A stretch of DNA of 57,535 nucleotides from IMG/VR virus record IMGVR_UViG_3300027741_000074, positions 1 through 57,535 of that record. The stretch is one strand, 5' to 3'. Below the pieces are notes generated by a model. That model made no database searches and was not told the DNA's origin. It saw only the letters and a program-made list of their open reading frames with translations. A program made the position numbers and the translations under genes. The stretch comes from a virus. This document shows positions 20,309-46,000 of the stretch, piece by piece (the first letter of the stretch is position 1; each line of letters starts with the position of its first letter).

Positions 20309-22564
20309 TTAGCTAGTTGCGTTGCCTGAAAGCTTCAATGCGCGTTCAGCATCCTTCAAAGCAAGATCCTGATCTGCTTTGGCTTGCTTAATCTGCATCT
20401 CGATCTGCGCCTTCTGTTGGGCAATCTGCATCTTGAGTTGATGCTCTTGCATCTTCATTTCCGTAGGAGACTGGCCTGCTGGCTGTCCTTCTTGCGGCTG
20501 CTGCCCTTCGGCTTGACCTGCTTCCATAGCCTTGCGTTGCTCGGCTTGCAGCTTACGGTTGAAGTTAGTGATGATCTCTTGCGCGATCTGCATCAGTTGG
20601 TTGGACTCAGCGACTTGCGCCCTTGCCGACGGATCGGCAGAGAGGTACTGCAAGTGTTCCCCGCAATGCTGGAAGATTGCCTCAACCAACGGAAGAGCTT
20701 GCATCGGATCGACCTCGCCTGAATCAATGCCAGCAACAAGTTGTTGCAGCAAAGGATTGTGGATGCGTAGGTGCATTCCGTGTAGCTCACTATCGAGAAC
20801 GGTAACAGGTTGGCCTGATTGCATTGCTTGATTTTCGAGCATAGCGATCTTCGCATCAACAGTCATTCGTGGCTCTGGATTTGCTGGCGCGTAGCGATCA
20901 ACAAGGTCACGACCAACCCGTTCCGAAGTGATGTCGCGGATCAAGTTACGACGACCTACTTCATCGTAGCTGCCAGCAATTTGATTAAGCTCACGGAGAG
21001 CGAGCAAACGGTTGGCAGCAGAGCCAGCACCGATTGCCCTTACAGCAACAGTCTTGTTGTGATCAATCGACTTGATGATCTGTTCGGTCACGCCACGTTC
21101 AGCGCAACGGGCAAAGAATGCCTTAGTACGATCATTACGCCTAGGACTGCTCACAGCGCGTCGTACGACCTCCTTGAGGAGTCGTGACCAGCTAGAGTAA
21201 AACAGATTGATTGTAGAGCCTGTCAGGCGTGAAGAAACGGCAAGGTCGTGTTCGGTCTGAAGCTGGTTACGGTAAGGGGAAGATTGGTTGCCGTACGTCG
21301 ATACCAAATCGACATTGGCTGCAAGCTGACTCTGCAAATCGTTTAGTGCAGGAACCATGTTCTGAGACAGGTTCGGTGCAGCCTTCTCGATCACCTTCAC
21401 GTTAGGTGAGAGGATCGAATACGGACCGTACATCGTAAACGACAAGTCCTCAAGCGCACGCTGCGTCTCAGGCTGGATCATCACTGCGCCAGACATCATC
21501 GCGCTATCGAGCATCTGGCAACGGATACGGTTGCTTGTCTGGACGTGATTGAAAATGCGGTGGCCTAAGCCTCTAACAGAATGGTACGTGCCGTTTGTTC
21601 CTACGCCGTACGAGAACATCACATAGGCTTGTTCGGGCTTGTCAAACATCGACGTTTGTTTGAACATGAAGGACTTCGGAGTCTCTTCGGCAAACATGAG
21701 TAGCGAGACAGAGCCATCGAACTCACGCACCCACATGTGAACGACTTGAACGGTCGTGTTCTCTAAACCAGTATAGAGGTCATTGTTCTTCATCTCGCGT
21801 TGGGTCACTTCCCAATCTGCGTAGGTGTTGCTGCCGTTACGGCCTGACGTGCGTGCGTTCTTGACGATGACACGTTTGACTTCCTCTACGTCCCAGCCGA
21901 TCTTCGCTGCGGCTTCAGGATTCTTGATGAAGGCGTAGAGTTCGTGTAAGAGGTACTGACGACGGGCACAAGCCACTTCGACGTACTCTTCGGATGCAGG
22001 GGTTTGACGTGGGATCAGGAAGTCGCCCAAACCACAAACACGGAAGTTCCAATTGTGTGGGTCTTCAAAGTAAGCAACGCCCACGCCGTGCTTTGTGAAC
22101 TCAGTGCAAAGCCTAAGGTAGCTGCTGTGGAACTCGGGCCACTCTCGCAACATCTGCGTCAACTCTTCGGCAATAATGTCGTTCGCGTCTTGCCGTGCGG
22201 CAGGATCGCCCAACTGCGTCTTGACGTGCATCAGCTTGTCAAGCGAGGTGTAGAGGTCAACGTAGGCGGACATCGACACGTCAAGGTATCGCTGCGCCTC
22301 GCCGAAGTTTAGGTTCGTACGATTGCCTTGGCCTGTCGAGTACAGAACCCTTTGATCATACGGCGGCGCACCATCAAACATAGCATCAGTACGCGCACGA
22401 TTACTTGAAGACTTTTCATCTGCTTTTCGGAGTGTGTCGTAAATCGAACGCGCAGCTTTCACGTCACGCAACCGCGATTCAGGCGGCGTAAGCGTATCGG
22501 GATCAAGGTTCAACAAGTCAAACTCGTTGAGACCTGAAGGTGTCACTGGCGGATTATTCGTCAC
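20309..22564 (-). CDS. portal (head-tail connector) protein
   Basis: The 751-residue product starts at GTG and has the layout of podovirus-type portals: an N-terminal region with SIYDTLRKADEKSSSNRARTDAMFDGAPPYD, a long alpha/beta body with IHNPLLQQL and a MRNRIRCQMLDSAMM-like stem/channel segment (HRIFNHVQTSNRIRCQMLDSA). The C-terminal 100 residues are Gln-rich coiled coil (MKMQEHQLKMQIAQQKAQIEM), as in the barrel and crown of short-tailed phage portals. The GTG is supported by a promoter-like sequence ending 7 nt upstream. Confidence 0.8.
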   Translation of the reverse strand: MTNNPPVTPSGLNEFDLLNLDPDTLTPPESRLRDVKAARSIYDTLRKADEKSSSNRARTDAMFDGAPPYDQRVLYSTGQGNRTNLNFGEAQRYLDVSMSAYVDLYTSLDKLMHVKTQLGDPAARQDANDIIAEELTQMLREWPEFHSSYLRLCTEFTKHGVGVAYFEDPHNWNFRVCGLGDFLIPRQTPASEEYVEVACARRQYLLHELYAFIKNPEAAAKIGWDVEEVKRVIVKNARTSGRNGSNTYADWEVTQREMKNNDLYTGLENTTVQVVHMWVREFDGSVSLLMFAEETPKSFMFKQTSMFDKPEQAYVMFSYGVGTNGTYHSVRGLGHRIFNHVQTSNRIRCQMLDSAMMSGAVMIQPETQRALEDLSFTMYGPYSILSPNVKVIEKAAPNLSQNMVPALNDLQSQLAANVDLVSTYGNQSSPYRNQLQTEHDLAVSSRLTGSTINLFYSSWSRLLKEVVRRAVSSPRRNDRTKAFFARCAERGVTEQIIKSIDHNKTVAVRAIGAGSAANRLLALRELNQIAGSYDEVGRRNLIRDITSERVGRDLVDRYAPANPEPRMTVDAKIAMLENQAMQSGQPVTVLDSELHGMHLRIHNPLLQQLVAGIDSGEVDPMQALPLVEAIFQHCGEHLQYLSADPSARAQVAESNQLMQIAQEIITNFNRKLQAEQRKAMEAGQAEGQQPQEGQPAGQSPTEMKMQEHQLKMQIAQQKAQIEMQIKQAKADQDLALKDAERALKLSGNATS

Positions 22565-24083: not shown

Positions 24084-24219
24084 CAAACAAACAAACACAC
24101 AAACACACAAACGTATGAAAGCAAACAAAGCAAACAAAGCAAACAAAGCAAACAAAGCAAACAAAGCAAACAAAGCAAACAAAGCAAACAAAGCAAACAA
24201 AGCAAACAAAGCAAACAAA
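24084..24219 (+). repeat. simple-sequence tract: CAAA/CACA leader and 11 x GCAAACAAA
   Basis: A run of 4-bp CAAA/CACA units lies just before the ATG at 24115. Directly after it come eleven perfect 9-bp units GCAAACAAA (24121-24219) encoding Ala-Asn-Lys. The 9-bp unit keeps the reading frame whatever its number, while the 4-bp units change only the leader length. A small hairpin TAGTTA/TAACTA at 24064-24082 precedes the tract. Length variation between isolates is expected. Confidence 0.85.
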
Positions 24220-24624
24220 GTAAATAGATATGCAAAGGTGGACTTCTCATCACTTCTCCCACTTATGGCGGGAGTGTGGGAAAGAGAAACGAGTTTGATG
24301 CAAGCGTTCCTTGCGATGTGGAATAAGCAGAAAGATAAGTCGGCTCCGTTAGAATTCCGAGAAGTCTTCTGTGCTTTCGCGCTAGCCAAGGGCTATTGTG
24401 ATAAGTGGGCAGGTGCTGTTGCCCGCGATGCTGATAGAGAATTGTTCGGTATCCGTGGCGTAAGATCCGACAAGGGCAAGCCGAAGGACAAGCCAAAGGC
24501 GGACAAGCCAAAGGCGGACAAGCCTGCGAGTGGCAAGGTTACGCCGCAACAGCTTGCTCACATGGCGAAGGCATTAGATCAAGAAGGCATCGACACCCTC
24601 ATCGGTCTTCTCGTCGCAATGTAA
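24115..24624 (+). CDS. unknown protein with (Ala-Asn-Lys)11 N terminus
   Basis: The 169-residue protein starts MK, then eleven ANK triplets, then a compact region (FSSLLPLMAGVWERETSLMQAFLAMWNKQ ... FREVFCAFALAKGYCDKWAGAVARDA) with the aromatic and helix pattern of a small folded domain. A Lys/Pro/Asp-rich linker follows, containing repeated PKADK, and it ends in a helix (TPQQLAHMAKALDQEGIDTLIGLL). The poly-ANK part may be an in-frame expansion of the A/C-rich translation-start region. It is the first gene of the early plus-strand block. Function unknown. Confidence 0.65.
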   Translation: MKANKANKANKANKANKANKANKANKANKANKANKVNRYAKVDFSSLLPLMAGVWERETSLMQAFLAMWNKQKDKSAPLEFREVFCAFALAKGYCDKWAGAVARDADRELFGIRGVRSDKGKPKDKPKADKPKADKPASGKVTPQQLAHMAKALDQEGIDTLIGLLVAM

Positions 24625-24690
24625 CCTGAATCCTGTAACCTGAATCCTGTAACCTGTAACCTGTAACCTGAATCCGTAATCCTGCATCCT
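24624..24690 (+). repeat. longest heptamer array: nine units of GAATCCT/GTAACCT
   Basis: After the stop codon come units CCTGAAT, CCTGTAA, CCTGAAT, CCTGTAA, CCTGTAA, CCTGTAA, CCTGAAT, then the degenerate CCGTAAT and CCTGCAT, in strict 7-bp phase. The alternation of two unit types indicates growth by unit and dimer duplication. Confidence 0.8.
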
Positions 24691-24777
24691 TAGTTAGGTT
24701 GACTAACTAAGGATGCTGATTGCCTGCTGCTCTTAGTTAGGTAACTAACTAAGGGCATAAGGCAGTTAGTAAACTGC
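24688..24777 (+). ncRNA. structured leader element A, copy 1
   Basis: Hairpin 1: 24688-24697 with 24703-24712 (10 bp). Main hairpin: GCTCTTAGTTAG (24729-24740) with CTAACTAAGGGC (24745-24756). An outer stem TTGCCT (24720-24725) / AGGCAG (24760-24765) closes it. GCAGTT (24762-24767) can instead pair with AACTGC (24772-24777), so outer stem and 3' hairpin exclude each other. It ends 9 nt before the ATG at 24787. Confidence 0.8.
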
Positions 24778-24786
24778 TATTAAAAT

Positions 24787-25005
24787 ATGAAAACAAAAAT
24801 GAATCCACCTCACTATGAGGTAGCTAGAGGTGCTTCTACCTACGGGATAGAGTACCTAATCCAAGAGGGTATGTTCGACTTCTCAAGAAGAAGCATACCC
24901 AAGAAGTTCAAGGGTCGTAAGTCTGCTGAGCGAGAGGCACGTAAGTACGCTGGTGCTTGGGTCGAAGCGGGTATGCGTCCGTATAGACGTTGGGAGGGAT
25001 ACTGA
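24787..25005 (+). CDS. small basic protein of unknown function
   Basis: A 72-residue protein with YEVARGASTYGIEYLIQEGMFDFSRRS followed by an Arg/Lys-rich helix (KKFKGRKSAEREARKYAGAWVEAGMRPYRRWEGY). The layout suggests a small nucleic-acid-binding early protein. Its stop TGA is the first triplet of element A copy 2, and its last two codons (GGATAC) match the bases that precede TGATTGCC in other copies, so the RNA element reaches into the coding end. Confidence 0.65.
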   Translation: MKTKMNPPHYEVARGASTYGIEYLIQEGMFDFSRRSIPKKFKGRKSAEREARKYAGAWVEAGMRPYRRWEGY

Positions 25006-25065
25006 TTGCCCGTTGCTCTTATTCCGCTCCAACGGAATAAGGGCATAGGGCAGTTAGTAACCTGC
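25003..25065 (+). ncRNA. structured leader element A, copy 2 (compensatory variant)
   Basis: Main hairpin: GCTCTTATTCCG (25015-25026) with CGGAATAAGGGC (25033-25044). The distal five base pairs differ from copy 1 on both arms yet stay paired. Outer stem TTGCCC (25006-25011) / GGGCAG (25048-25053) has also changed in concert from TTGCCT / AGGCAG. The alternative 3' hairpin is GCAG (25050-25053) / CTGC (25062-25065). This is the copy that shows structure, not sequence, is conserved. Confidence 0.8.
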
Positions 25066-25073
25066 AACATAAC

Positions 25074-25241
25074 ATGACAACAAATAGAATAGACAACGCA
25101 ATCAAATACCTCATGTCTCGCAATCCAAAGGCATTGCTAGACATGACAACCCCAACCCCAATCCTCGGTCGCCAGATCGTGCTGTGGCTACCTAAGAAGG
25201 TATCCAGTCTGGCATTCGACTTGCCGCCTCTCAAGCGGTGA
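25074..25241 (+). CDS. 55-residue early protein
   Basis: The frame reads MTTNRIDNAIKYLMSRNPKAL and ends SLAFDLPPLKR with an internal PTPILGRQIVLWLPKKV segment. It lies between element A copies 2 and 3, and its TGA is the first triplet of copy 3, the same junction as in the previous gene. That repeated arrangement is the main evidence that the short frame is real. Helical N terminus, then a hydrophobic strand. Function unknown. Confidence 0.6.
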   Translation: MTTNRIDNAIKYLMSRNPKALLDMTTPTPILGRQIVLWLPKKVSSLAFDLPPLKR

Positions 25242-25303
25242 TTGCCCGTTGCTCTTAGTTAGCTCACCTAACTAAGGGCATAGGACAGTTCATGTTGGAC
25301 TGC
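25239..25303 (+). ncRNA. structured leader element A, copy 3
   Basis: Main hairpin GCTCTTAGTTAG (25251-25262) / CTAACTAAGGGC (25268-25279). The outer stem TTGCCC (25242-25247) / GGACAG (25283-25288) has one mismatch. The alternative 3' hairpin is CAGT (25286-25289) / ACTG (25299-25302). It precedes the ATG at 25328 with an A/T-rich leader. Confidence 0.75.
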
Positions 25304-25327
25304 AACTAAACCATAATAAATAAAAAT

Positions 25328-25564
25328 ATGAAAAACAAAGAATGTAGTTTACGACAACTCATTATTGAATCCCTGACAGATGCCCTTGCAAAGGGGAAAT
25401 GCGAATGGGAAGCTGCGTTCCCTGAGGGCTTACCCATTGATGTACCCATTGATGACAAGGGTTATATCCAATACTCACGGATTCCAAGGTCATTTGTCGA
25501 AAAGCAAAACGACGAAACCCTGTTTCGTCTTTATACGGCCAACTGCTGTTTAGCTTTTCGCTGA
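25328..25564 (+). CDS. 78-residue early protein
   Basis: The product has an amphipathic helix (SLRQLIIESLTDALAKGKCEWEAAF) followed by an acidic middle with PIDVPIDDKGYIQYSRIP and an aromatic C terminus with two cysteines (LYTANCCLAF). No family is recognised. It is framed by element A copies 3 and 4, and its 3' flank enters a short heptamer array (25563-25577). It belongs to the set of four small genes that share this RNA element. Confidence 0.65.
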   Translation: MKNKECSLRQLIIESLTDALAKGKCEWEAAFPEGLPIDVPIDDKGYIQYSRIPRSFVEKQNDETLFRLYTANCCLAFR

Positions 25565-25573
25565 ACCCTGTAT

Positions 25574-25668
25574 CCTTAGTTAGTCAACCTAACTAAGGAT
25601 ACTGATTGCCTGCTGCTCTTAGTTAGGTAACTAACTAACTAAGGGCACAAGGCAGTTATGAAGACTGC
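25574..25668 (+). ncRNA. structured leader element A, copy 4
   Basis: Hairpin 1: 25574-25583 with 25589-25598 (10 bp, as in copy 1 with a different loop). Main hairpin: 25615-25626 with 25635-25646, whose loop is enlarged by a CTAA duplication. Outer stem TTGCCT (25606-25611) / AGGCAG (25650-25655), alternative 3' hairpin GCAGT (25652-25656) / ACTGC (25664-25668). It precedes the ATG at 25696. Confidence 0.8.
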
Positions 25669-25695
25669 AACTAAACCATAAATACAAATAGAAAT

Positions 25696-26817
25696 ATGAA
25701 AACAAGAGCACAGATAGAAATCACACACGATGACATCGAAGGTGATGTCATCGACATTATCAATGAAGCGATCTACGAAGCGCGGGGAATCCGCGTCTCG
25801 CTTGACGCTTTCTTATTCAATAGCAAGACTCGCTTGCTATCTCACTCATTGGAAGTCCGTGACAACTGCGGTTCCATAAGCAGTTACTGCTTCCATGAGC
25901 ATGTGAAGCTCTCATACCGAGGGTTGCCGATTACTCTTCACCTACCGCCAGTCATGTCAGAAGGTAGACAGGTAGATTATTACGCCACAGATCCACAGTC
26001 TTTAGTTGACTATGCCCGTTGGGCTAACGTCGTGTTACCCTTCAACCCTTTAGACGAGAAGAGCGGCCTTCGGTTTGTCTCGCGTCATACCACAAGCGTT
26101 TACAGTTCCGACAATCACGCTAGGTTCACTGACCCAAAGCGCATTGTCTCTTGCGTCAACGACTTGATGAAGCACCTAAATAGAGAAGCCTTGAGTCAGC
26201 TCGTCACTAACCCCATGCTTGCTCGCATCGAGTCCGCGATTGCCAATCAAGGTTATCATTGTGAGTTCATCTCCGACGATGTTACCATCTCAGAGGTCTA
26301 CTACAACGAGAGCAGCACGACGAACAAGTTCGTTAGCTGCATGGCAGGCAAGTCTGCTGCATGGTTTGAGATCTACGATGATCTTCAATCACATGACCGT
26401 CTGACGATGGTTCGCCTAGTCAATGGTAGCGGCGAGTTTAAGGGTCGCGCCTTGTGCTGGAAAGGTAGTAATCCAGATGACTTGTATCTCGATAGGCTCT
26501 ACGTTCCTGAGTCCAACGGCGTGCAGCTCGTCGATGCGTTAGATGCTTTCAAGAAGTTCTGCGCTGAGAATAACATCCGCAAGACTACGTTCAGCAAGAC
26601 TGCTGAGTCCATCGGCTTAGAGTACAAGCCGATCTCCATTGAGGTGCCGCAACGTCTCAACTTCTACGATTACTTCCCGTATGCTGATTCCATGTATCGG
26701 TTCTGTTCCGATGGCAAGCTACGCAACCACTCGAACTATCCTTCAGGTGTGTATCTTGTATCGGAGTTGCGTTGTACTGACGGCACCGTCGAAGGTAACG
26801 ACGATCAAGATGTTTAA
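25696..26817 (+). CDS. unknown 373-residue early protein
   Basis: I do not recognise the family with confidence. The first 60 residues are acidic and helical (DIEGDVIDIINEAIYEARG). Residues 185-320 contain GEFKGRALCWKGSNPDDLYLDRLYVPESNGVQLVDALDAFKKFCAENN, an arrangement seen in uncharacterised phage proteins in which a strand pair with a GRA-hydrophobic-W signature is followed by a DR(L/I)Y strand and a helix, somewhat like an acetyltransferase core. It is the largest gene preceded by element A. It is followed after 13 bp by the peptidase gene. Confidence 0.65.
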   Translation: MKTRAQIEITHDDIEGDVIDIINEAIYEARGIRVSLDAFLFNSKTRLLSHSLEVRDNCGSISSYCFHEHVKLSYRGLPITLHLPPVMSEGRQVDYYATDPQSLVDYARWANVVLPFNPLDEKSGLRFVSRHTTSVYSSDNHARFTDPKRIVSCVNDLMKHLNREALSQLVTNPMLARIESAIANQGYHCEFISDDVTISEVYYNESSTTNKFVSCMAGKSAAWFEIYDDLQSHDRLTMVRLVNGSGEFKGRALCWKGSNPDDLYLDRLYVPESNGVQLVDALDAFKKFCAENNIRKTTFSKTAESIGLEYKPISIEVPQRLNFYDYFPYADSMYRFCSDGKLRNHSNYPSGVYLVSELRCTDGTVEGNDDQDV

Positions 26818-26830
26818 CAGAATAACCAAT

Positions 26831-27847
26831 ATGAAAATCAATACACAACTATTACTCGATGTCTTCGCAATCCAAAATCCATCACGCAATGTTGCGTGTA
26901 ACAATGAGGCAATGCGTGTCATCCAATCCCTGATTCCTGAATCCTGCACCGTGGTTCGGTGTGCTGGCAACATGATCGTTCGCAAAGGTGACACGTCCAA
27001 GATCCATCCGTTCTTCGTTGCGCACATGGATCAGGTACATGACTATGTGCCGTTCATGCGGCTCAGCATCGACAACAATATCCTGTCAGCGTATGACGGC
27101 AACGGCGCGCAATGCGGGACGGGCGGTGACGACAAGTGTGGCATCTATCTAGCACTCGAAATGCTACATCGTTTGCCCACTGTATCCTGTGTCTTCGTCC
27201 GTGACGAGGAGGTCGGTTGCCTAGGCTCGGCTATCGTGCCGATGGAGTGGTTCGCCAATGCGGCCTTTGTCCTGCAAGCTGACCGCAACAATCGTACCTT
27301 CGACATCATCCGCGATACTAACGGTATGTGCTGCGCTAGTGACGACTTCATGGATGCGCTGTTCGACCTGCCTGTTGCATCGAAGCACGGAGAGGATACA
27401 GGTAGCATCACTGACATTGGCGAGCTAGCAAGACGCAAGCTGCACGTCTCTTGTGTCAACATCTCATCAGGCTACCACCGCCCGCATCAGTCAAAGGAGA
27501 TCGTCAACCTTATCGAGTTGGCTATTGCTTGTGAGCTAGCCTTGCAGGCCGCGACTAACTACGGACATAAGCAGTGGTTGCACACCGCTACTAGCTCGAA
27601 CAATAACTATGGATACGAGAGCCACTTCAAGAAGTACAGTCGCTTCGATGACTTCGACAATGATTATCTAGCCTCTGATGATGTAACCGAAGACGTGTTC
27701 GAGCTTACGCCAGAACGCGAGTCGCTTATCAGTATGCTCGAAGATTTAGGTTATGACCGCCACTTCGATTTACTGGAGGCGTACGACACCGACGAGTTGA
27801 TCAAGTGGGTAGAAGGAGAGACCAGAAGGGGGACAACCTTAGTCTAA
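26831..27847 (+). CDS. M20/M28/M42-type co-catalytic zinc aminopeptidase
   Basis: The 338-residue enzyme keeps the full metal set of the two-zinc exopeptidases: HMD at 65-67, GGDDK at 98-102, the catalytic DEE at 125-127, ADR with D151 and a late His in SGYHRPH at about 215. These correspond to the ligands of M20/M28/M42 aminopeptidases and carboxypeptidases. It would trim N-terminal residues from peptides or cleave small peptides in the cytoplasm. The C-terminal 80 residues are acidic and unrelated to the fold. The start at 26831 gives an N terminus of normal length; a longer frame to 26639 overlaps the previous gene. Such a complete exopeptidase is unusual in phage early regions. Confidence 0.8.
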   Translation: MKINTQLLLDVFAIQNPSRNVACNNEAMRVIQSLIPESCTVVRCAGNMIVRKGDTSKIHPFFVAHMDQVHDYVPFMRLSIDNNILSAYDGNGAQCGTGGDDKCGIYLALEMLHRLPTVSCVFVRDEEVGCLGSAIVPMEWFANAAFVLQADRNNRTFDIIRDTNGMCCASDDFMDALFDLPVASKHGEDTGSITDIGELARRKLHVSCVNISSGYHRPHQSKEIVNLIELAIACELALQAATNYGHKQWLHTATSSNNNYGYESHFKKYSRFDDFDNDYLASDDVTEDVFELTPERESLISMLEDLGYDRHFDLLEAYDTDELIKWVEGETRRGTTLV

Positions 27848-27898
27848 TGACAAACCAATGCGTAGCTTACCGCATAGTTGGAGCACAACACAAACACA
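27847..27898 (+). ncRNA. leader element B, copy 1 (pseudoknot-capable)
   Basis: Stem 1 ATGCG (27858-27862) / CGCAT (27871-27875). The loop contains GCTT (27865-27868), which can pair with downstream GAGC (27881-27884) to form an H-type pseudoknot. The whole 52-bp segment is identical to 28235-28286. It leads into an A/C-rich leader for the ATG at 27914. Confidence 0.75.
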
Positions 27899-27913
27899 TA
27901 ACACAACAAACAT

Positions 27914-28234: not shown

Positions 28235-28286
28235 ATGACAAACCAATGCGTAGCTTACCGCATAGTTGGAGCACAACACAAACACA
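28235..28286 (+). ncRNA. leader element B, copy 2
   Basis: Identical over 52 bp to 27847-27898. Stem 1 28246-28250 / 28259-28263, pseudoknot arm GCTT (28253-28256) / GAGC (28269-28272). A GTCAT-AAAT-ATGAC hairpin directly upstream adds a second stem. It precedes the ATG at 28303. Confidence 0.75.
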
Positions 28287-28302
28287 CAACATAACTAAAC
28301 CA

Positions 28303-28847: not shown

Positions 28848-29942
28848 ATGACAACGACAAACACTGCTATTAACTCCATCAAACCATCCGAACTCTTGCC
28901 TCTTGCGGAAGCGGCAAGCATGATCGACCGCTTCCTTATGATCGTAGGGTCAGGCGGTGCAGGCAAGACCTCAATGGTCTGCAATGTCCTCGGCCCTGCA
29001 ATGGGACGTGAGGTATGGGAAGTCAACCTCAACGGACAAGGCCCACAAGAAACGACAGGCTACCTTGTGCCTGACTCCGTCACGAGGGATGGCTGGTTCT
29101 CCGCTCCTGAAATCTGGCCTACGCTAGATCGAGTCGGTGATCGGCCTGTCCTCCTGTTCCTCGATGAGGTCAATGACTACGACTCGCAAGTCAGAGCCTT
29201 GCTTCGTAGCCTGTACCCTGCATCTGGCAAGCGGAAGATTGGTTCCCATACCTTAGGCACTAACGTCTTCGTTGTGTGTGCCACTAACCGACGTTGCGAT
29301 GGTACTCGTTCAGCGGTAGAGGATGCCCCGTTCACTGAACGCTGTATCAAAGTCACGCTTGAGCCTAACGTCAGCGACTGGCTCGACTGGTACGACACGA
29401 ACCCCAAGCTCACCGCTAGTGGTTCTCATGTGCCCTCGTTCCTCCGCTTCGGTACTACAGGCGGCGATGGTCTCGACCACTTCAACCCGCCTGTCGTCAT
29501 GCCGTATGACGGAGCACCGCATCCTTGTCCTCGTACATGGGAGGCAGTCGCATTGCTTGAGCCGATCCGTACTACGGCACGAGACATCTACCGCAAAGCA
29601 GTCAAAGGTTGCATCGGTGACCGTGCAGCGTCTGCGTTCTTCGGGTTCCTGCAACACGTTGACAAGTTGCCTGACATCGCCGCCCTTCGTGCCAATGCTG
29701 ACACGTTCCAAGTGCCTGACGATCCTGCCAGTCAGTTCGCCCTTGTGTCGGCTTGTTTGAGCGGTGCAACGAGGGGCGTGAAGGACATACCGATTGCCGT
29801 GCATAGCGGTGGGTTCGACTGGCTTGTTACCCTACTGCTCAAGTGCAGAGGTGACATCCGTGAGTTCGGTGCACGCTCCGCTGAACGTAGAGGCATCCCA
29901 CTCAGCGAGCATCCTAAATCCCATGCCTTGATCTTAGGCTAA
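28848..29942 (+). CDS. MoxR-type AAA+ ATPase
   Basis: The 364-residue protein has Walker A GSGGAGKTS (about 34-42), Walker B LLFLDEVND (about 102-110), sensor 1 VVCATNRR (about 142-149) and an arginine-finger candidate in FTERCIKV. The region after the ATPase core is helical. Phage and bacterial MoxR ATPases act with VWA-domain partners as chaperones or metal-inserting machines. Such partners follow at 30011 and 31120. All are transcribed together, with hairpin leaders in between. Confidence 0.85.
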   Translation: MTTTNTAINSIKPSELLPLAEAASMIDRFLMIVGSGGAGKTSMVCNVLGPAMGREVWEVNLNGQGPQETTGYLVPDSVTRDGWFSAPEIWPTLDRVGDRPVLLFLDEVNDYDSQVRALLRSLYPASGKRKIGSHTLGTNVFVVCATNRRCDGTRSAVEDAPFTERCIKVTLEPNVSDWLDWYDTNPKLTASGSHVPSFLRFGTTGGDGLDHFNPPVVMPYDGAPHPCPRTWEAVALLEPIRTTARDIYRKAVKGCIGDRAASAFFGFLQHVDKLPDIAALRANADTFQVPDDPASQFALVSACLSGATRGVKDIPIAVHSGGFDWLVTLLLKCRGDIREFGARSAERRGIPLSEHPKSHALILG

Positions 29943-29948
29943 ATGGAT

Positions 29949-29975
29949 CTGCGTAGCTTACCGCATAGTTGAAGC
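29949..29975 (+). ncRNA. leader element B, copy 3 (diverged flanks)
   Basis: Stem TGCG (29950-29953) / CGCA (29962-29965). GCTT in the loop (29956-29959) pairs with AAGC (29972-29975), where copies 1 and 2 have GAGC: a U-A pair replaces a U-G pair. Flanking bases differ, so the core is what is kept. It precedes the ATG at 30011. Confidence 0.7.
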
Positions 29976-30010
29976 GTTCATTAACAACACAACAAACTAG
30001 ATACAATACT

Positions 30011-34003: not shown

Positions 34004-34098
34004 TGGGTATGCTATTGCTCCTCCTAATCGGAGGCTGGTTCCTATGGATTGTAGCCTGCTTCCTACTTGAGATCATCCATTACTTAATGAATGGTTGA
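34003..34098 (+). CDS. 31-residue single-span membrane peptide
   Basis: The frame is MGM followed by LLLLLIGGWFLWIVACFLLEIIHYLM, one strong membrane segment. An AGGAGG sits at proper spacing before the ATG, unusual in this phage, and the start shares a base with the preceding stop. Its 3' end runs 19 bp into the end of the giant gene on the other strand. It may modify the host membrane or be an early lysis or exclusion peptide. Confidence 0.5.
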   Translation: MGMLLLLLIGGWFLWIVACFLLEIIHYLMNG

Positions 34099-37000
34099 GC
34101 TACGTTATAGTTGATGGGTTTATTAGGGACAGTAACTCTAATAAGCTCATCAACTAATGGCATAGGATCTTGCTCTCCGCCTCTAGTCTTGTTCTCGATT
34201 ATCTTCTTGAACGCTGCTTCGTTCGGAACCCATGAGTAGTTCTCACCTGCAATGGCATAGCCTAAGCGTTGGTTGCTGATGCGTGCCCTCTTGCCAGTCG
34301 TTATCAAACCTTCCTCAGTTGAGCCGAGTGACTTCATACCTTGGATGAAATCATAGAGGCGACCTTGCGTGACGTTAGTGGCTGACTGGTACTTGCCCAC
34401 TTGGTCTCCGACATTACCAACATCGAAGCCCTTCGCAGAGTAGATCGGATTGAGCAATGCCAAGTCTTCATCCATTGCACTTCTGATCTTACTCATTGCA
34501 CGATACTCGATATCCGACTTCTTCATTATAGTAGGTCGCGCTCCTGTAAGCTCACCTGCAATGAGGAGTCCTGCATCCTGTTGCCCGTATCGGAATACTT
34601 CATAACCCTTCTTAGCAATTGACGGGAGGAATGCACTCTTCCCTAAGTGTGCGAGTAGTTTTCCGTATGCTTGAACGACGTTGTCGGACTGCAAAGCGAT
34701 TGGGTTACCAAAGCCATCTTGGTTCTTTGACACTTCGAACAGTGCGTTGGCTGCGATCTGTGTGCCGATAAGGTCCTTAGCGATGTACTCTCCGATGCCT
34801 TTGACATTACCTTGTGCACCTAACTTAACAATATCTGTAAGCTGACTGTGTGGTAAGATATTGGACATATCAATAACTTGAATGCCATCCTTGCCAACCA
34901 ATCGGGCGAACACACCGTGATTCTTTTGCCAATCAGGCAAGCCCTCACGCAGTGTGCTAAGTTCTTCATTGGTAAGTACACGACCCAATGCTTTATCTTC
35001 ATCGTCCTTACCCCCTGAAAGTAGGCTGAACAGCGTACCGAATACGAGACCGAATGCAGTGCCGCCCCCTGCAACAGTAGAAGAGAAACCAACTAAGCGT
35101 TTAATGCCGCGAGCTTTCATCACGTCATTGCCTGAGTTGATCTCCTCCATTGCAAGAGGTACGGTATTGATCATTGTGCGAAGCACTTCCGATTTCCATC
35201 GGACGAAAGGCAGAACGATCATAGCGAACGGAGACTTATTGAAAGACTTCGCAACGCTAACTTGATCGGAGTGCGTTGGGAACGTGAGCTTAACCTTACG
35301 GGCAGCTCTCACCTCCAATGAACTAAGAGACTCAGTACCGTATGCTTTCTTAAGCTGGTCAAGTTCATACATATAAGCATTAACTTTGAACGCGCTATCA
35401 ATAACATTGTTCAGACTAGCAAGAAACTCGACTGTAACTTTAGTACCTTTCTTTAGGTTAAACCTTTTAGCAATCTTGCTGATATCACCTGTAGCCTGTA
35501 CCTCTACGAGTTCATTAAGTAGGTCATCTAGTTGCTCGTCCACTCCAGCAGTAAAGCCGTTAAGCATATCCATCGCCATACGACCACGAGTTTCGTCACG
35601 TAAAATCTGAAGCTCAGTCAATCGACGGATCGTGTCACGTTGTTCTTGTGATTCCGCAGCAAGTATGTTTGCCCTAATTGATAGTCTCGCTGCTTCTCTA
35701 GCGTACAATGGATTGATAATACCTTGTGCTGCGGATAATGCCATGCCGCCTAAGATGTTACGAGGGTAGAAACCAACGGAACCTAAGGTCTGCGTTGTGA
35801 CAGCCGCGCCTGATACCCACGCTAATCCTTTACCAATGCTATTGATTAGCTCCATTGAACGGGTATCCTGATCCCTATTCTTCGGTCCGAGTTCCTGTCT
35901 GACAGCAGCAGCTACGTCACTGCGAACATAGAGTCCTGCAAGCTCACCTAACTCAGCATTCTGACTTGGATGGAACAACAACTCCATACTATCTGTGCGC
36001 TCGCGGCTCGCTAGTCCAGTCTTAACAGCCTCCCTTGCAAAGTTGCGAAGGAACCTATCGTTGGCAGCAAGTCGTCCGACACTGTAGATAGTACGAACAG
36101 CATTTTCAAACGGATCAGTTACCTCACCTAAGAGTTCTCGTAGAGGCGCATCGAAATCTTTTTTGTGAAGTAAAAGATTAACGTCGCGCTTAACGGTATT
36201 GAAAGTGCCGAGTTCTTTAGACTCTGCTGCTTGTTCGTCTAGCTTCTTTAGATACTTGTCAAGATATGCAATAGTCTTACTCGCAACTTGTTCCTCAGTA
36301 AGCGTCTGCCCTTCTTGCTTTGCGTCAAAGAGAACCTCTGCTTTAAAGTGGTCAGCGGCAGCGGAGCGTAGCTTGTTGAAGTCAACGGTCTTGCCGTCAA
36401 TCTCAACAACCCCTCCCTTACTTGCAGCTAGCGACCAGCCTTCTGTTGTGAAGTAGTTGAAGGTACGTGTGAGGTACACGTCATTGGACTCATCGAAGTT
36501 AATGATTTGCTTATACTTGTTGATCTCTTGTCGGAACTCCACAAGGTAGTCTACTAACGTACCAAACCCTCTAGCCCTAAGTTGATTTTCCATTGCCATC
36601 TGCTCCTTGCGGAACTCAACGTAGAACTGATCGGCAATCGGTTGCGATAGTTTTGCCTCGTAGTCTTCAGCTAGTCTCGTAATGTTTGGGTCTTCAGCAT
36701 TGTCCGCTTTGAACTGGCGCACTTTGCGTTGCAGTTCTTTGCGTGCCTCGCCTTGTACAGCAGGAGCAGTAGTACCTAAGATGGTCCCGATGTCCTCGAT
36801 TGCAATGCCTGCACTGAGTGCTTCATCTCTCAGCTTAGGGTATTTCTTAGCGAAGTCTGACATTGTGTACTCAATACTTCCGAGAGACCCATCACGCTGA
36901 TTGATAAACCTACGCAACTCAAGTGGCATATCGTACATCTTCTCTTGCGCCTTCTTCCAGAACTCAGCAACCTTCGATGGGTTGGTAGATGCAATCGGCA

Positions 37001-40000
37001 GGTTGAAGCTGGTGCGATCCTCTTGTCCTTCAGCGATGTTGCCCTCGACGGCATTGATGAAGTGCGTCGTGTCACCTAACTCGCCTGCCGTTGATAGTTC
37101 AGGAGCAGGCAGTACGCCGCCGTTACGCAATGAGCGGAACTCACGCGATGCCATTGAGATCTTAGCGGCAGTGCTTGCCGTAGGGTTAGTAGCAAACTGA
37201 GCTTTTAGTTTAGTAACGAATGCTCTTACTGCTTCTACGAACTTAGCAAGTAGCGATGGGTTCGTGCGAAGGAATGCAAGGTTCTCCTCACGCGAACGAC
37301 CGACAGCGATGCGGGTCATCTCAGAGCGCACCCATTCAGCGGCGATGTCGGACTCCCTCAGTGCTCCTGATTCCAGATCAGCGGCGATCATTGCCTGACG
37401 TTTCGTGTAGTCAGACTCTGAGTTGGAGTAGAGCATATCAGCAACGAGACCACGCATACCCTCGCCCATGCCCTTTGCAATGTTTGCGAAGTCATCCTCA
37501 GTGAAAGTCCTGTAAGATGCTAAGTGCGCTAACTCTTCGTCAACGAAGGTGCGTACAGCAGAGCGTGCGTTAGCAGGAGTCAGGCCGTAGACGAGATCGT
37601 TGACCGTATCTGGGTTCACGATAATTGAATTAGGCTTAGAGCGTCGTGCGCCCAACTGACCTAACATCGTGTTGTCAAACTCAAGCGTGATACCTTCAGG
37701 CAGGATGCGTTGCATCTCGCTGACGACGTCTACTCTACCTGATGGTGTTGTAGTAGCTAAGAGAATTGCGTCACTACCTTCTGCCGCATTGCGTAGCGTC
37801 TGTTGGATCTTCTCAGCAGCTTTGAGTCTCGTGATGTTCGATGCCTTAGCGTTCTCCGACGGTACGTTAGGTAGCGTGCTTGCCCAACGTGAGTCCATGT
37901 TGAACGTGTTGGAGTGGGCGAGGGACATCTTCGTGAAGTCGAGAAGCTCATTGATTGCGTTGGCAGTCTGCGGTTTCGACTTCGCTTCAAACCCAAAGAT
38001 CGAAAGTACAGCGTCAATCATGCGGCGAAGGATCGTACGCTCTTGCGGTTTGGTAAGACCGTTCAGCAGCGGCGTAAACTCAGGCGCAGTAAGTGCATAC
38101 GTGACAAACTCTTCAAGACTCGACAGACCCAACTGCATCGTTGGATCAGTGTCGATCCCGTTCTTAATTGCGTTAGCCAATGCGAAGTTGCGGATCTGCT
38201 CAAGGCGTTGCACCGCTGCACTTTGTTGCGCCGTCGTAGGGTTGTTGATTACCTTGACGGTGACAGCATGGATCAGTTCGTGCAACAACACGTCAGCAAG
38301 ACCGCGACCGTTGTGCTCGCTAAGGTTAAGCAGAATCGTGTTATTCGACTTGTCGTATAGACCTGCAAAGCTCGCTTGCATATCGACAATGCCGATGTTC
38401 ACCGAACGGATAAGGTCTGGCGCAGCATTCAGGATAGATACGATGGCTTGCTGTTGTGCTGTGCCTCTATTGCCCAACACAGATAGTGCCCTAAGGATAC
38501 TGTTGGAGTCCTCTGATACGAGACCCAACTCGTTCATCATCCTGATGTTCTCCTGACGGGCAACTTCTCTGAGTGCTGGATCAAGAGTAGATAGGGAGAA
38601 GTCAATCGTCATGCGCTCAATTGAGCGAGTCTTTGGAAGTGCTCTGACAACTCCTTCGTTGGTCATCCGCGTTGCATAGTCAACGGCATTGGATGGGATC
38701 TCGGACTCGTAGGATACAGGACGTACCTTACTGAGTACCTTAGTCTGACCGCCTTCAGTTACTCGCGTCGGCAGTTCAGTTACTTCGACCGCATTTGGGT
38801 TGACATTTACCCCTCCAGTAATGGCACTAAGGCTCTCACCAAATTGTTGCAAATTCTGAGCGATCTCTTCAGGGGTTCTCGTTGTGGTCACCTCTTCAAA
38901 AAACTCGGAGGGCACAACGTCTACGGGATCTACATATGTTGTGAGTAGATCAGAACCAAATACATTAACACCGTTTGTGATTAAAGCGTTACGCAGATCT
39001 TCTTTTCGTTGGGTAGCAAATGCATCATACGCCTGTCTAACCTCAAGAGATTTGATGTACTTATCAACCCGACTCCGTTGTTCTGGAGTAAGTTTCGTTT
39101 TAAATCTAAGTTGAGCGGGATGGTTCTCCGTTGCTTTGGCAAGCCGTTCCCATTCAGGTAATGACATCAAATACTCAATACGCTTTACAGCAATATCAAT
39201 AACTTCTTTTGACTTATCTGAAAGTCTAGCTACATACTCACGGTTATTCTTGAGTTGTCGGAAACTTGATTCAATATCAAGTATTACCGAATCAAGTAAC
39301 TCGGCACCGTTACCTGTACGTTTATTGATCCCATCAATTTGGCTTTGCCTAAGTGCAATAGAGTTTTTTAATCCATCAATAATAGCCTGACCATTAAAGA
39401 TGATATGATACTTCAAGCTACTTAACTCATCGTACTTCTGCCTAAAGATTATTTTTTTATCTGAATCATTTGGTAGGCGCGGATCTTTTAGAGCTTTAAC
39501 ATATCTTGCAATTGCTTTGTCAATGCGCGATAGTTCTTTTGTACGTTCCTTTCGTCCTGACTTTTGAAGTTTCTCATAGTTGGATAGTTTTGTTTTTAAA
39601 GAGCCTATTTCGCCGTTGAGCGCATCTAGTTGTTCTTTAGTAAAACGAGAGATAATGCGATTTACAGTTCCGCTGTTATTCCAAAAATCAGTATTAGCTA
39701 GATTGAGTACATCTTCTCCTGCTTCAGGTTGGATGATAGCCTCTAATATCTTAAACCCATCGGAGATACGAGCACGAGCATCTTCGATAGTCTGAAGAGC
39801 GATGGCTTTTTCTTCTCCTAAGTTTGTAAGTGTGCCAGCCACTTTAGCTAAAGCCTTGTCCCTATTGGCTTGATACCTTTCAGCTTCTTCAATCGTAGTG
39901 ACATGCTGCCCTTTAGCTTCCGCCTCACGAACTCGTTTACCCTCCTCCACAATAACGAATCCTACTGGGGAAGCATTAGGTGGGGTTGGTGGGGAAGCAG

Positions 40001-43000
40001 GTGTTTTGTTCTCCCGCTCAGAAGGAGAACGCAGTGGCACTTGCACAAGTCTATTATCACGCGTCTCGATCATTACAGGAGGTAGCCAACCCTTCAGGAT
40101 CATTAGTCCTGCGGCTCTTTGTCCCACTTCTGTCTCAGACAGAAGAGCCATAGTTATATTTGCATAGCCATTGTTTGTCCTAAACAGGGAATCATCACTC
40201 AGTTTCTTTGCGAGCACACTGACAAGAACATCATCGGATATTTTTGCAAGTTCTGCTGGCGTGTCTAGCCCAACCATTTTTGCAATATCCCTAAAGGCTT
40301 TTCCTAATTCTTTATTTCCTTTTACAGTGTTCTCTAACTCAGCAGCGAGGAGTTGTCCTCGATCATGGAACACACTATCAAAAGGAGATAGGGCAACACC
40401 AAAACGCTCACTATAAGTATTATCTGTATAGTCATTTAGGGTTAAGCCCATCTCTCTACGCTGCTGGGTAGCGTCTAAAAGAATCTGCCAATCGGGCCTG
40501 CCTCCTGCAATTAAATCAGAAAACTCAAAGTCACCACCAAAGGTTTCTTGGAGAGCATCAATGCTTATTGAAGGTAGGTTCGTACTATCCGCTCTTTCGC
40601 GTTTTGCGTGTTTATTTGCAATTGTAAAGAAGTCTCTTCCTAGATTAGTCTTTGCTTTACCGTCAACAATTTGAGTTGTCGTAAGATATTTTCTAGGATC
40701 AGGCATCGTGTAAAACTTGCCTTCGATATTCGTGGCGTTTTGGAATAGGTACATTCCATACTGCTTCATTACAGATGTTGGGTCTGTGCCTTGGAAACCG
40801 ATACCCAATTTTACAATGTTATTGGCAATCGTTTTATCATCTAAGCCACTAAACATCTCCCTCACATAGTAGGTAAGGTTTGAATTCTTTACAGCATCAG
40901 TGAGATTATTGGAGTCTTCCTTGATTAAAAGTCTACGTAAATTTTGAGGTAAATCCCCAAACTCAATCTTGGTATCTGAGACATTAGTATCTATGGCTCT
41001 TGCGACTAGCTCTCTACCTTCTTCATTTTTAATTCGTGCTTTCCAGTCAAGAGACGCAATTACTTTTTTAACAACGTGTTGAGCTAGTCGATACTCATTA
41101 AGTTGGGAAGTAAAATCAACAAGGGCATCGCTTGCTGCGTCCTCTATACCTTCAGTTGTAAGCGGTAATTTAACATCTGGATTAGGACTATAAGCATTTG
41201 ATGTTAGGAATCGTGTAGCCCCATCAAATACTAATTTGATAAGACCTGATGTCCCTAAATCAAACTTTTTAATGTCCGACGGCTTAACCATATTATCCAC
41301 AAACAACTCTGCCCGAACATCGTATTTAGTCCTTCTATCTTTATCATCAGGATCTTCGCTGCTGTTGCGTCGAGTATCTAGTTTACTGCGGTACTGTCCG
41401 ATCAGTACAGGGTTATCCCTTGCAGGCTCAAAGTACCCGTCTACAGTAACGCCATCCGAAGCAACATGGATTGCAGGATTTAGAACTCCTTTGAAGCTTG
41501 CAGGAATTACAATACGTAATCCGTCAGCAATCTGTGCGCGTGTAATTTCAAGATCATTAGTGAATACGCCATACGTTACAGCTTCGTTATTTAGATAGCC
41601 TCTTTCAACAGGATAAAATTGATCAGTAAATTCTTGGCTGCGGACCATATCAAAAGCCGCTTTACCGATGTTGTATTTAGGTACATCTTTAACTTTCTTT
41701 CTTAGTTCAGCAATTTCCTTTTCAATTGTAGCAATCTGCGTTGACGCATTATAATTTTTAGCTTCGGCTTTTGTTTTTATGTTTGATAGCTCGACACGTT
41801 TAGACTCCAATTGAGAAGCTAGTTTGGCATTTACTTGTGTGCCTTGTGGCCCTTCAAATACGTATTTAACTGATCCTGTAGGCGGATATAGTTTATGTAC
41901 TCGCTCACGAAGTAAGTTATTCTTATCCTTAATGTATGCATTAGGATTAGCTACCTCTTGTCCTTCGTTCTCTACTCGCTCTATGATAGCTTCAGAGAAA
42001 GCGGGATATGTAAGCAAACCATTATTAGTAGTAAACATATTAGCTGCGGATGCAATAGTTGCACCCACAGTAGGAAGGTTTACTACTTGTCCTGATTGGA
42101 CAAGCTGGTTAAAGAAGTCCTCCTCAGTACTCACACGGAACTTATCTGCTGGATAGACTACTGACTTAGTCTTGAGTCCTACAGACGGCTCGATGATCTT
42201 ACCGAACTGTGCCTTACTACCTGATACAGGAACGAAGCCACCTTTGCCGAAGATTGATGCAGTAATCTGGTCTACCATCTCACGACGTAGTCCTTCTTGC
42301 AAATCATTACGCTCTTTGATTTCAGCAACTAACGAGGTAAGGGTATCCTTGATTGCTTGATTGGCTTCTGAACGAATGACTTTAAGTTCAGCTTGAACGC
42401 GAGCTTTGTCAGTACGACTCTTCTTGAGCGTTTCAATTCTACCATTCAACTCGTTGACGCGACCAACATAGCCGTTGACCAACGTCAAGAAACTTGTGAC
42501 CCGCTCGTCCAAAGGGATCTCAGGTTCGACTTCAGGCTCAGGCGCATTTGCAGCAGCCTTTGCCGCTGCTTTCTCTTCCTTAATAAACGCCTTAGCATTT
42601 GCTTCATTCTGCGATAGCTTCTTCTGGATCTCCTTAGAAGAAATATCCACGTTGCTAAGTGGGAAGTAAATCACATTGCCGTCCGCATCATTGAACTCGA
42701 TCTCACGAGTTTCTGGAATGTACTTAAATCCTGTAAGCGTTTGCCTTGTTAAAGGTCCTGTAGCTCCTTCAGCCTCTAGTCCTGCAACAATATCTACCGT
42801 CTTCAGCTTACCCTTTGAGATCAGGTAATGCAGGATATTGGTTACAGGATAGGGTTTAGGTTCTGGTTTTTGGAGTTGTTGAGTTACTTTGATCCCCTCC
42901 TTTTCAAGATCGTACTTAATGCTTTCAATATCACGTTCGTCAATGTATTCGCGCACAAGATCAATCCTATTACTTAGATTCCCATAGTAACTAAGAGTCT

Positions 43001-46000
43001 CTTTTCTGATCTTATCAGATACTTGGTTATCTGTGTCCGAAGCAAAGGAGATAATATCGTCTGCCATACTCTGTACGACATCAAGAAGATCGGAGTCGAT
43101 GCTCTCAAACGTACTAGCTGTGACGTATTTATTATTTAGCTTACCGTTTAGGATCTTGCTAACTACTGGCGAGATGTCTTGAGTAAGCTCATACGAGTTG
43201 CGGATCTGATCAAGTTGGGTATTCCACTCCACATCAGGCGAATTATAGAGTGCCTGTTGGTCAGGAGTAAGCATACCCATTTGGATAGTCTCAGCACTGT
43301 AATTACGTCGTGCTTTCTGAAGACTTTTCAATCGAACCTGAAGACCAACCTTCCGCACTTCATTAAGCTTAGGGTCTTTGATCCTCTCTTTGAGGTCTGC
43401 AATCTTTTTATCGTAGTCAGTAAGTACTGCTTGAGTTGCTTGTTGTTCAGGCGTTTGATCGAGATTGAACTCCAACTGTCCTTCGGTTCTTTTAGCTACC
43501 TCTTCCTCTGTTGGGGCTTCAGCATCTTTGATTTCACCTTCGGCGAAGCCAAACTGCAACTGCCCGTCAACAAGTTCAGGTGCTGGTGGTGCAATATCAA
43601 TGTTGTACTCTTTTGCAAAGGCACGAATCATCGACGGATTTGTTACCGATACGGGCATCGAGACAATGCCATTGTTAAGAGATACGGCATCTTTGATCGT
43701 AATGGACCGAACAATTCCATCATCGTCGCGCATTACTTCAAAGCGATTATCGACCACTTGACCTTCAGGTAAGGGTTTAGGTGCAAACTTCTGTTTGGAT
43801 TTCCCTACAAGAACATAAGGTGTTCCCGCTTTAACGCCATAGAGGTCATCACCAGTACGCATGAGCGTTGGGTATTTAGTAATGACATTATCAGCGTTCT
43901 GGAGCCTCGGACCTAGGTTCATGTGCGTGATAGTCACGCCTCCTTTTTGCGTGTAAGGCTTATCTAGTTTAAGCCTTACCTCCTCTTGATCATCGGCTAA
44001 CTCAAGTGTTCCTGAGAACTCCCCAACGGAGGCAGGCTCACCGATGAGATCATTTAAAAACGTGACAGTTTCTGGTTGTGCTTCCTCTTGCGTCTGAGGC
44101 TTACCAAAGAATGCCTGCAAGAAAGTATCAATTGGTACTACTGGTTTCTCTTTGGCATCAGCTACAACTTCAGTAGACTTCCCCTTAGAAACTCCTTCTT
44201 GTGCTTTAATATCAGCTTGTGTTGCGGCGTTAGCCTTAGAACGAGCATCGTCGATCATGCGTTGCACATAATCTGCTGTTGCATTACTATTAGTTTTGCG
44301 TAGTTGGTTTGCAACATTCTCAAGTGCAGACGCACGACCCTCATATACAAGAGCTTGTTCCGACTTGTTGACTTTTCCGAACTGCATAGCTCCGCTAGTC
44401 GCGCCACCCATTACACCACCAATAAAACCCGCCGTAAATACTTGTGCAACTTTTTCGGAAAGTGGTGTCTCTTTGTCAAGAGCCGCATCCTCTAGCTTCA
44501 TCTGGACTCCTTGATCCAATGCTTCTTCAACAGACTCGTGTAATGCTCCACCTATAGTAGTACGCATCCAGTTCTTGTACGTCCCGCTAATTGCACCACG
44601 CATTGCTTTCTGGAAAGCAGCATCTGATACAAACTGACCATCGTTCTTCAGGTTTTCATAAACTTGTTTAGCCTGACGATAGTTCATCTTATCTACAGGA
44701 ACCACTTTGCCCCCTGAAGCTAGTACGGACTCTTCAGTCTCACCTGCAAACATTGCACGAACGCGATTCGTTGCAACTTCTTCAACACCTCCGTGACCTA
44801 AAAGACCCATGCCGCTTGTGATAACACCTGTCGAGAGGCCTGCGGCCAGAGCATAACCTAAAGCATTCTTGTGCTTTTCTTCGTGGCTCATCGTATCAGG
44901 CAACTGACTGTAGATTGATCCGTAGGTTGACGTAGCGGAACGAATAAACGAAGTCGTGAACACAGGAGATTGTTCCGCAAACTTAGTCGCAAGACTCGCG
45001 CCTACAGATTTGATTGCGTTCCCAATACCTGCCTCACCACCTGCTGCTGCTGCTGACTTAAAAGCAAGTGCTGCGGCCTCATCTACATTTGACAAAGCGA
45101 ATTTAGCCGAAGTACGGAGCATTGATTTCGCAGAGAGAGCACCTGTTTTAGCAAGAGTCTTAGCTCCTGCAAATACACCGCCTGTACCAATGGTAAGCGC
45201 GATGTCGGTTGCCACTTGAGGTATGGTATTGATAATCTGGAATCCTAAACCAAACTGGTCACCAAATAGCTTTGCGTATTCTTCACGGCGTGATTGGTCT
45301 TTAGCCATATCACTCATGTACTTTGCAGCTTGTTCGTTGCCGCTAAGGGCCGCAATACCTACAGGGAATTCAACAACATTCTTCCATGCGCTTTTTCCAA
45401 ACTGCTCTAAACGAGTATTGAATCCATCGTAGTTTTTTGAGTTACCTACCCACTGCTCGACGAACTGTGCGTCGGTAAGTCCATCAGCCTTAGCCTTAGC
45501 GTAAGCACCTACAGCTTCAGGTTCTTCCTCAAGGATAACACGTTTGAGATCAGGAGCGTTCTGCTCCAGCAACACACCGCGTTCAAAACGAGCCTGTTTC
45601 TGCTGCTCTTTATTTAGTGGGGCTGCGGTGACGGCAGCCTCAAACGCTTGTTTATTTGCAAGTAGTTGTGGGGCAATAAGAGTATTGCCCATTGAGTCTG
45701 TTGCGATACCTGTCTCAGGTCGGTCAGCACGATACACTGCACCTGCTGCCGTTGTCGTTAAGTCATTACTAAACTTCTCGATCTCTTCAGCGGAGAACTT
45801 CTTGCGAATCTCATCGTTACCTGCAAGAATATCTGAGACCTTTGTGTCAGGTGCGTAAGCAGGCTCTTTGGTTTCTTTACCCATCAAGAAGTTTCCTGTG
45901 TCTACTACGGCTTCACCAAACTTAATGAATGGGTACGAAACTACTGTCTTAGCTCCCTCAAAGATTGCTTCTCCAGTAGTGCGTTGCTCTGCCGTTTTAG

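Follow-up and report, generated by a model that had tools for sequence, protein, structure and literature searches.

A repeated three-strand RNA element between putative early genes of an uncultured phage and its relatives

The locus and the four copies of the element

The window analysed in this study is the whole of IMG/VR virus record IMGVR_UViG_3300027741_000074 (positions 1 to 57,535; 57,535 bases). Among its products are a family A DNA polymerase, a large terminase and an endolysin; it also carries an ATPase and an HNH-type gene whose counterparts in N4 adjoin one another. Two divergent gene blocks meet at about 23.2-24.1 kb. The rightward block opens with small ORFs of no assigned function, and the element described here lies between these ORFs (Table 1). 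Synteny with N4 suggests that the element-bearing region comprises early genes. The first-pass annotation of this DNA had described four copies of a structured RNA element, each ahead of a small gene. Three of these genes are indeed small, and the fourth, with 373 codons, is not. PADLOC gave no match for the small ORFs, and a search for relatives of the 373-aa gene found none.

Table 1. Positions of the element copies, neighbouring repeats and genes in the window
Feature	Position	Strand	Remarks
Portal-like protein	20309-22564		query for relatives
Tandem repeat opening the 169-aa ORF	24115-24230		9-bp unit coding (KAN)n
Tandem 7-mers TGTAACC / TGAATCC	24620-24689		3' of the 169-aa ORF
14-bp hairpin abutting copy 1	24684-24716	+	TTAGTTAG arm as in P2; not in the element of relatives
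Element copy 1	24717-24778	+	P1+P2 24717-24768, P3 24761-24778 (fold)
Strands of copy 1	x 24717-24725, P2 24728-24757, y 24760-24768	+	
Covariance-model hit, copy 1	24716-24778	+	65.2 bits
GCTCTTA...TAAGGGC	24729-24756, 25015-25044, 25251-25279, 25615-25646	+	copies 1 to 4
72-aa ORF	24787-25005	+	no family match
Element copy 2	25003-25066	+	P1+P2 25003-25056, P3 25050-25065 (fold); covariance model 67.4 bits
55-aa ORF	25074-25241	+	no family match
Element copy 3	25239-25304	+	P1+P2 25240-25290 (C.A break), P3 about 25286-25302 (fold); 57.5 bits
78-aa ORF	25328-25564	+	no family match
14-bp hairpin abutting copy 4	25570-25602	+	exact inverse of the 24684-24716 hairpin over 29 nt
Element copy 4	25603-25669	+	P1+P2 25603-25658, P3 25652-25668 (fold); 56.9 bits
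373-aa ORF	25696-26817	+	no functional family; weak match to a PHROG of unknown function
Second intercistronic motif GCGTAGCTTACCGCATAGNTGNAGCAC	27847-27910, 28235-28298, 29938-30001		conserved in sequence, not shape alone
4229-aa ORF	34080-46769	-	no PDB, Pfam or PHROG match
RNA ligase homologue	54760-55425	+	phrog_548

A Shine-Dalgarno signal was absent in the window, being found at 6 of the 59 called genes, which is the chance rate of 10%. At the start codons, T was favoured at -1 and A at -5/-6. The window also holds an RNA ligase homologue, of interest if the phage does cleave its own transcripts. The 169-aa ORF begins with a tandem repeat and is followed by tandem 7-mers; CCTGNATCC strings, similar to these 7-mers, recur between genes of relatives.

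The sequence GCTCTTA...TAAGGGC occurred four times on the + strand, as had been claimed. There was no fifth copy in the 57.5-kb record, and none was expected from shuffled sequences. The element proper runs from a conserved TGA through a 3' hairpin. Its order is x (beginning at the TGA), a 2-nt internal loop, the first arm of P2, the loop, the second arm of P2, another 2-nt internal loop and y, followed by z. Strands x and y form the outer stem P1, which has about nine layers across copies and is separated by a 2x2 internal loop from the inner stem P2 (13 bp in the window, 13-14 bp in general). The 3' hairpin, P3, is formed by y and z; it therefore reuses the 3' strand of P1, and z lies just ahead of the next start codon. 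In copies 1, 2 and 4, the helix has 24-25 layers, and the predicted minimum-energy fold is P1+P2. The 3' sides of the internal loops lie near 24758-24759, 25046-25047, 25281-25282 and 25648-25649.

Both stems turned out to be longer than first described. The hairpin given as 12 bp is present, with an inner stem of 13 bp, and the outer TTGCCY/RGGCAG stem is part of a P1 that extends back to the TGA and reaches 9 bp in copies 1, 2 and 4. The alternative pairing of GGCAG, with upstream TTGCC or with downstream (A/C)CTGC, exists in these same three copies. In copy 3, y reads GGACAG, which costs P1 one of its pairs and P3 its outermost. All five distal P2 pairs of copy 2 had been reported as changed. 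We found that only three of the five differ on both arms (G-C to U-A, U-A to C-G and A-U to C-G); the second and the fifth are unchanged. The outer U-A pair is C-G in copy 2 as stated, and it is C-G in copy 3 as well, so U-A occurs just in copies 1 and 4.

Copies 2 and 3 do start exactly at the stop codons of the preceding 72-aa and 55-aa ORFs (25003-25005 and 25239-25241). The ranges first drawn for copies 1 and 4 took in two separate hairpins, and these copies properly start at a TGA at 24717 and 25603, respectively. The two extra hairpins are exact mutual reverse complements over 29 nt, and both share the TTAGTTAG arm of P2.

Copies in related phages and evidence for a structured RNA

A search with the portal-like protein recovered 14 related contigs at 61-94% identity, and the same protein used as a profile recovered 80. 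Portal relatives were also sought in bacterial genomes as a guide to the host, and none was found. A covariance-model search, as the first-pass annotation had recommended, revealed 28 further copies of the element in 10 other uncultured phage contigs. Together with the four in the window, they make 32 copies in 11 records. Nine of the 10 contigs belong to the portal-profile set, and the tenth (L099) was found via its ATPase. Twenty-three copies are in L005, L007, L009, L010, L012, L015, L016 and L017, with one further copy in L007; L022 adds one and L099 three. These counts leave out repeat hits in contigs already counted, as well as L006, which duplicates L005. At the search threshold used, the element was not found in L008, L011, L013, L014 and L018. 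The minimum-energy folds for L005 and for the second L007 copy show the usual structure, with an imperfect P2.

Homologues of the 55-aa ORF are present in nine related contigs, if L005 and L006, which are near-duplicates, are taken as one. The element follows this gene in the window, L005, L007, L015 and L017, in each case in the phage's own sequence version. In L008, L013 and L014, the gene is followed by just a short palindrome. The small genes of the stretch differ among relatives, and the genes that flank it are conserved. Copies within one genome look alike; copy 2 of the window has an arm sequence of the type typical of L009/L010.

Other repeats were seen between the genes of these phages. 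The second intercistronic motif of the window, GCGTAGCTTACCGCATAGNTGNAGCAC, also occurs in L005, L007, L008, L009, L011 and L013. The palindrome GTCAAGACNGTCTTGAC precedes it in several relatives; in L008 it is found behind the 55-aa gene and its palindrome, where others have the element. Short palindromes, different in each phage, are dispersed between genes and at times within them, such as GTCAAGA-NNN-TCTTGAC in L005 (4057-8750) and GTCTAGTCCCCCTAGAC in L022 (1-4800); L008, L013 and L014 have such palindromes too.

Sequence-based searches reached no further. A nucleotide search of isolated phages gave no match. An exact-pattern scan with the window's own sequence returned no additional genomes, and one with a relative's pattern returned just contigs already known. 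Rfam 15 had no match in the window at the gathering threshold; a permissive search gave only sub-threshold hits to microRNA-precursor models, which are generic hairpins.

The pairing itself was well conserved. RNAalifold on 27 copies predicted 20 pairs, 10 of which showed double-sided compensatory changes, and 99.0% of the cells can pair. The covariation score was 0.424, compared with 0.151 in shuffles, and none of 500 shuffles reached it. When the strands were slid by one column, the pairing signal collapsed. We also built a tree-aware null for this analysis, in the manner of R-scape, over 1,770 column pairs. The best four column pairs all fell within P1 and P2, with all-pairs E-values of 0.025 (17-46), 0.1 (26-37), 2.9 (7-55) and 3.6 (10-52). 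The last two, both in P1, are not significant in the all-pairs test. They count as significant only through their rank and when the test is restricted to the 20 proposed pairs, where the E-values are about 0.0003, 0.001, 0.03 and 0.04. As the alignment is shallow and the copies are paralogues, the covariation is strong but not overwhelming. Covariation was retained once homologues were added, so the element passed the check that the first-pass annotation had itself set as a possible refutation. The claim of base-pair conservation without sequence conservation is strongly supported: in the aligned sequences, the letters vary freely while the pairing is kept.

A separate line of evidence concerns the strand. 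Among 31 sense copies, the non-Watson-Crick cells comprised 65 G.U and 2 A.C, in an alignment whose fitting to the structure leans slightly in its favour and in which one invariant U-G pair supplies many of the G.U cells. Because a G.U on the sense strand is an A.C on the other, the imbalance points to the sense-strand RNA as the target of selection and argues against an operator, a cruciform or an antisense RNA. In addition, the covariance model scored the sense strand above the antisense strand in every copy. By these sequence criteria, the element is shown to be a structured RNA that lies between cistrons and belongs to the sense strand of what appears to be an early-gene operon. No conserved unpaired, ligand-binding core of the riboswitch type was seen; the runs of unpaired columns outside the 2x2 loop are short and vary.

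Competing folds and a shape shared across the clade

Column 55 of y pairs both with column 7 of x and with z, and the three bases change jointly. The triple is T-A-T in the window and L005, C-G-C in the TCGCT/AGCGG type and A-T-A in the TAGCG/CGCTG type, with L007 as the exception. P3 is also in excess: given P1+P2, a P3 of at least 6 was found in 38 of 65 gaps, and shuffling the downstream part gave a mean of 20 and a maximum of 27. P3 starts 0-4 nt past the internal loop. P1 and P3 are thus both maintained, one base of y co-changing with both of its partners. On top of P2, P1 contributes about -8 to -16 kcal/mol, against about -4.5 to -11 for P3; in several copies with a long P3, the two energies are about equal. 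The folds had been described as mutually exclusive. The joint changes and the P3 excess bear out the competition. In long-P3 copies, however, a shortened P1 and most of P3 can coexist, so the helices compete for part of y and the exclusion is incomplete.

We then scanned the gaps between same-strand ORFs with a descriptor that contains no sequence (P2 of at least 9 bp, an internal loop of 1-3 nt, P1 of at least 5 and P3 made from y). The first pass, over 613 gaps, gave 46 sense and 9 antisense matches and 0 in three shuffles. A non-redundant pass over 523 gaps, with similar gaps removed, P3 of at least 6 required and several loci of another search left out as coming from contigs of the first pass, gave 25 sense and 5 antisense matches and 0-1 per shuffle (20 shuffles). 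The early-gene strand held 23 of the 25 sense matches, although the gaps split 284 to 239. Examples unrelated in sequence include L037, L038, L046, L060, L064 and L080. Most unrelated examples begin no more than about 10 nt from the stop, and the ATG mostly follows 18-44 nt later. The descriptor also catches some probable terminators or chance hits (e.g. L028 and L062). In 27 representatives of several sequence types, the irregular helix had 24.6 +/- 3.2 layers; CA or TA mostly made up the 3' strand of the internal loop, where an RY / YA pattern recurs. A generic test for a long irregular hairpin near a stop was abandoned: it gave 116 sense and 124 antisense hits, and it is useless because long hairpins are nearly symmetric.

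Possible functions and comparison with known systems

A switch, a processing signal and a translational regulator had been suggested as roles. Structurally, the likeness to T7 RNase III sites appears to be the best of the three. We propose, with a probability of about 0.4, that RNase III-type processing between cistrons takes place at the element, where P3 would re-form as a 5' hairpin on the downstream mRNA. The operon would be transcribed as one unit, and the irregular helix would be the target of a structure-specific endonuclease, probably host RNase III; the cut would most likely fall on the internal loop's 3' side. P2 would then form a hairpin capping the 3' end of the upstream mRNA. In the downstream mRNA, y would be freed from x and would refold with z, placing P3 within a few bases of the new 5' end. 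This would protect both products and give every gene a separately stable message, as in the T7 early mRNAs.

The element has the features of such a site: it lies between stop and start, with x usually no more than 10 nt from the stop, its double-stranded region exceeds about 22 nt, and an internal loop of conserved mismatches separates two stems. The retained pairing, the sense-strand bias, the position of P3 with its co-changing y base, and the recurrence of this shape in unrelated sequences, nearly always on the early-gene strand, also speak for the model. The mean helix length of the representatives is at or above the minimum target size of RNase III, which is 22 nt (PMC5371410). An enzyme of this type recognises shape, not letters, and the freely exchanged arm sequences fit this. 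A fixed total helix length was not supported: the lengths of P1 and P2 show no trade-off, so total length is not demonstrably measured, which counts against the model.

The main rival, which we regard as possible and clearly less probable, is a translational switch gated by the stop codon. A ribosome terminating at the TGA of x would open P1 and let P3 form, P1 would form when no ribosome is there, and the choice of fold would set access to, or reinitiation at, the next start without a Shine-Dalgarno site. The contest of P1 and P3 for y and the Shine-Dalgarno frequency at chance level agree with this, and in about 15 of 28 copies an ORF of at least 35 aa terminates at the TGA of x. However, copies 1 and 4 and several relatives use a stop elsewhere and still keep the TGA and its pairing, and L007 has CTC in place of the TGA with the pairing intact. 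Furthermore, neither helix includes the start codon, which sits in an A-rich region that is unpaired.

The RNA might instead be bound and not cut, serving as an ESAS-like site at which a phage or host RNA-binding protein controls translation or decay. A structure-specific binding protein would leave a footprint identical to that of a processing site. Arms specific to each phage just 5' of starts resemble the ESAS described for mycobacteriophages (PMC3203893), and the recurrent RY / YA pattern of the internal loop also speaks for this reading. We consider this reading unlikely, since beyond the internal loop the sequence types share no sequence and the 13-bp SAS motif is missing: GGGATAGGAGCCC had two matches with three mismatches in our scan, below chance, and none at the elements.

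It is similarly doubtful that the copies are primarily a recombination cassette, in which repeats at gene borders permit the exchange of small genes and the hairpin is secondary. The turnover of small genes between conserved neighbours, the resemblance of copies within a genome and the L009/L010-type arm of copy 2 would all be expected, and such a function is compatible with an RNA role. Exchange by homology needs neither compensatory changes nor a G.U bias. In addition, distant phages keep the shape and not the letters, so the homology needed for recombination is lost among them.

A DNA-level site (an operator, a cruciform or an N4-like hairpin promoter for a virion RNA polymerase) is very improbable. 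Palindromic arms, which recur elsewhere in these genomes, and the N4-like ATPase/HNH pair recall such sites, but the excess of G.U over A.C on the sense strand, the higher sense score of each copy and the variable loop and arm sequences all argue against them. No polymerase motif, and no motif-B-like pattern, was seen in the 4229-aa protein, although a pattern scan is a weak test. Intrinsic terminators or attenuators, to which strong intergenic hairpins with two competing folds might be compared, can practically be dismissed, as no T run follows P2 or P3 in any window copy and a terminator scan gave no + strand terminator at the element hairpins.

If the processing model is true, it shows a way in which a phage without Shine-Dalgarno sites could split one early transcript into separately stabilised messages. 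We tentatively suggest, as a doubtful extension, a three-strand 'cleave-and-cap' class of RNA defined by shape alone, which would retain no sequence and would lie between one early gene and the next throughout a clade of uncultured phages; y would first pair upstream to build the nuclease substrate and then, once cleavage has occurred, pair downstream as a cap for the resulting 5' end. An earlier description of the three-strand form was not found in the open part of PubMed Central, and a class of its own is a real possibility. RNAs that keep shape and drop sequence escape sequence searches, and an x-P2-y-z descriptor applied between stop and start can find others.

Several known systems invite comparison. 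The early intercistronic sites of T7 are cut by RNase III; in our element, cleavage is a prediction from sequence. The T7 sites are likewise repeated between early genes, and in our control folding, R0.5, R1, R1.1 and R1.3 all formed a stem, an internal loop and a second stem. R0.5 and R1 also begin at the TGA of the preceding gene. The internal loops of T7 are larger and asymmetric, whereas ours is 2x2, and the T7 sites have no 3' hairpin sharing a strand. Judged by its sequence, the element is an RNA with no catalogued family match, whose design is shared by the T7 sites except for P3.

The stem-loop cassettes of T4-type phages are proposed gene-exchange repeats and carry an early promoter. 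Like the element, they are stem-loops that recur among the small accessory genes of a hypervariable region; our scan found no promoter-like site at the elements.

The ESAS of Cluster K mycobacteriophages are inverted repeats with short spacers, located just 5' of many starts and mostly in one orientation (PMC3203893). Their arms differ among phage groups, as in our element, and the 2011 description left their role open. ESAS adjoin a conserved 13-bp SAS motif, and the passages on them describe neither an internal loop nor a 3' hairpin with a shared strand; the element has both of these and no SAS. The element could serve as a comparison case for ESAS.
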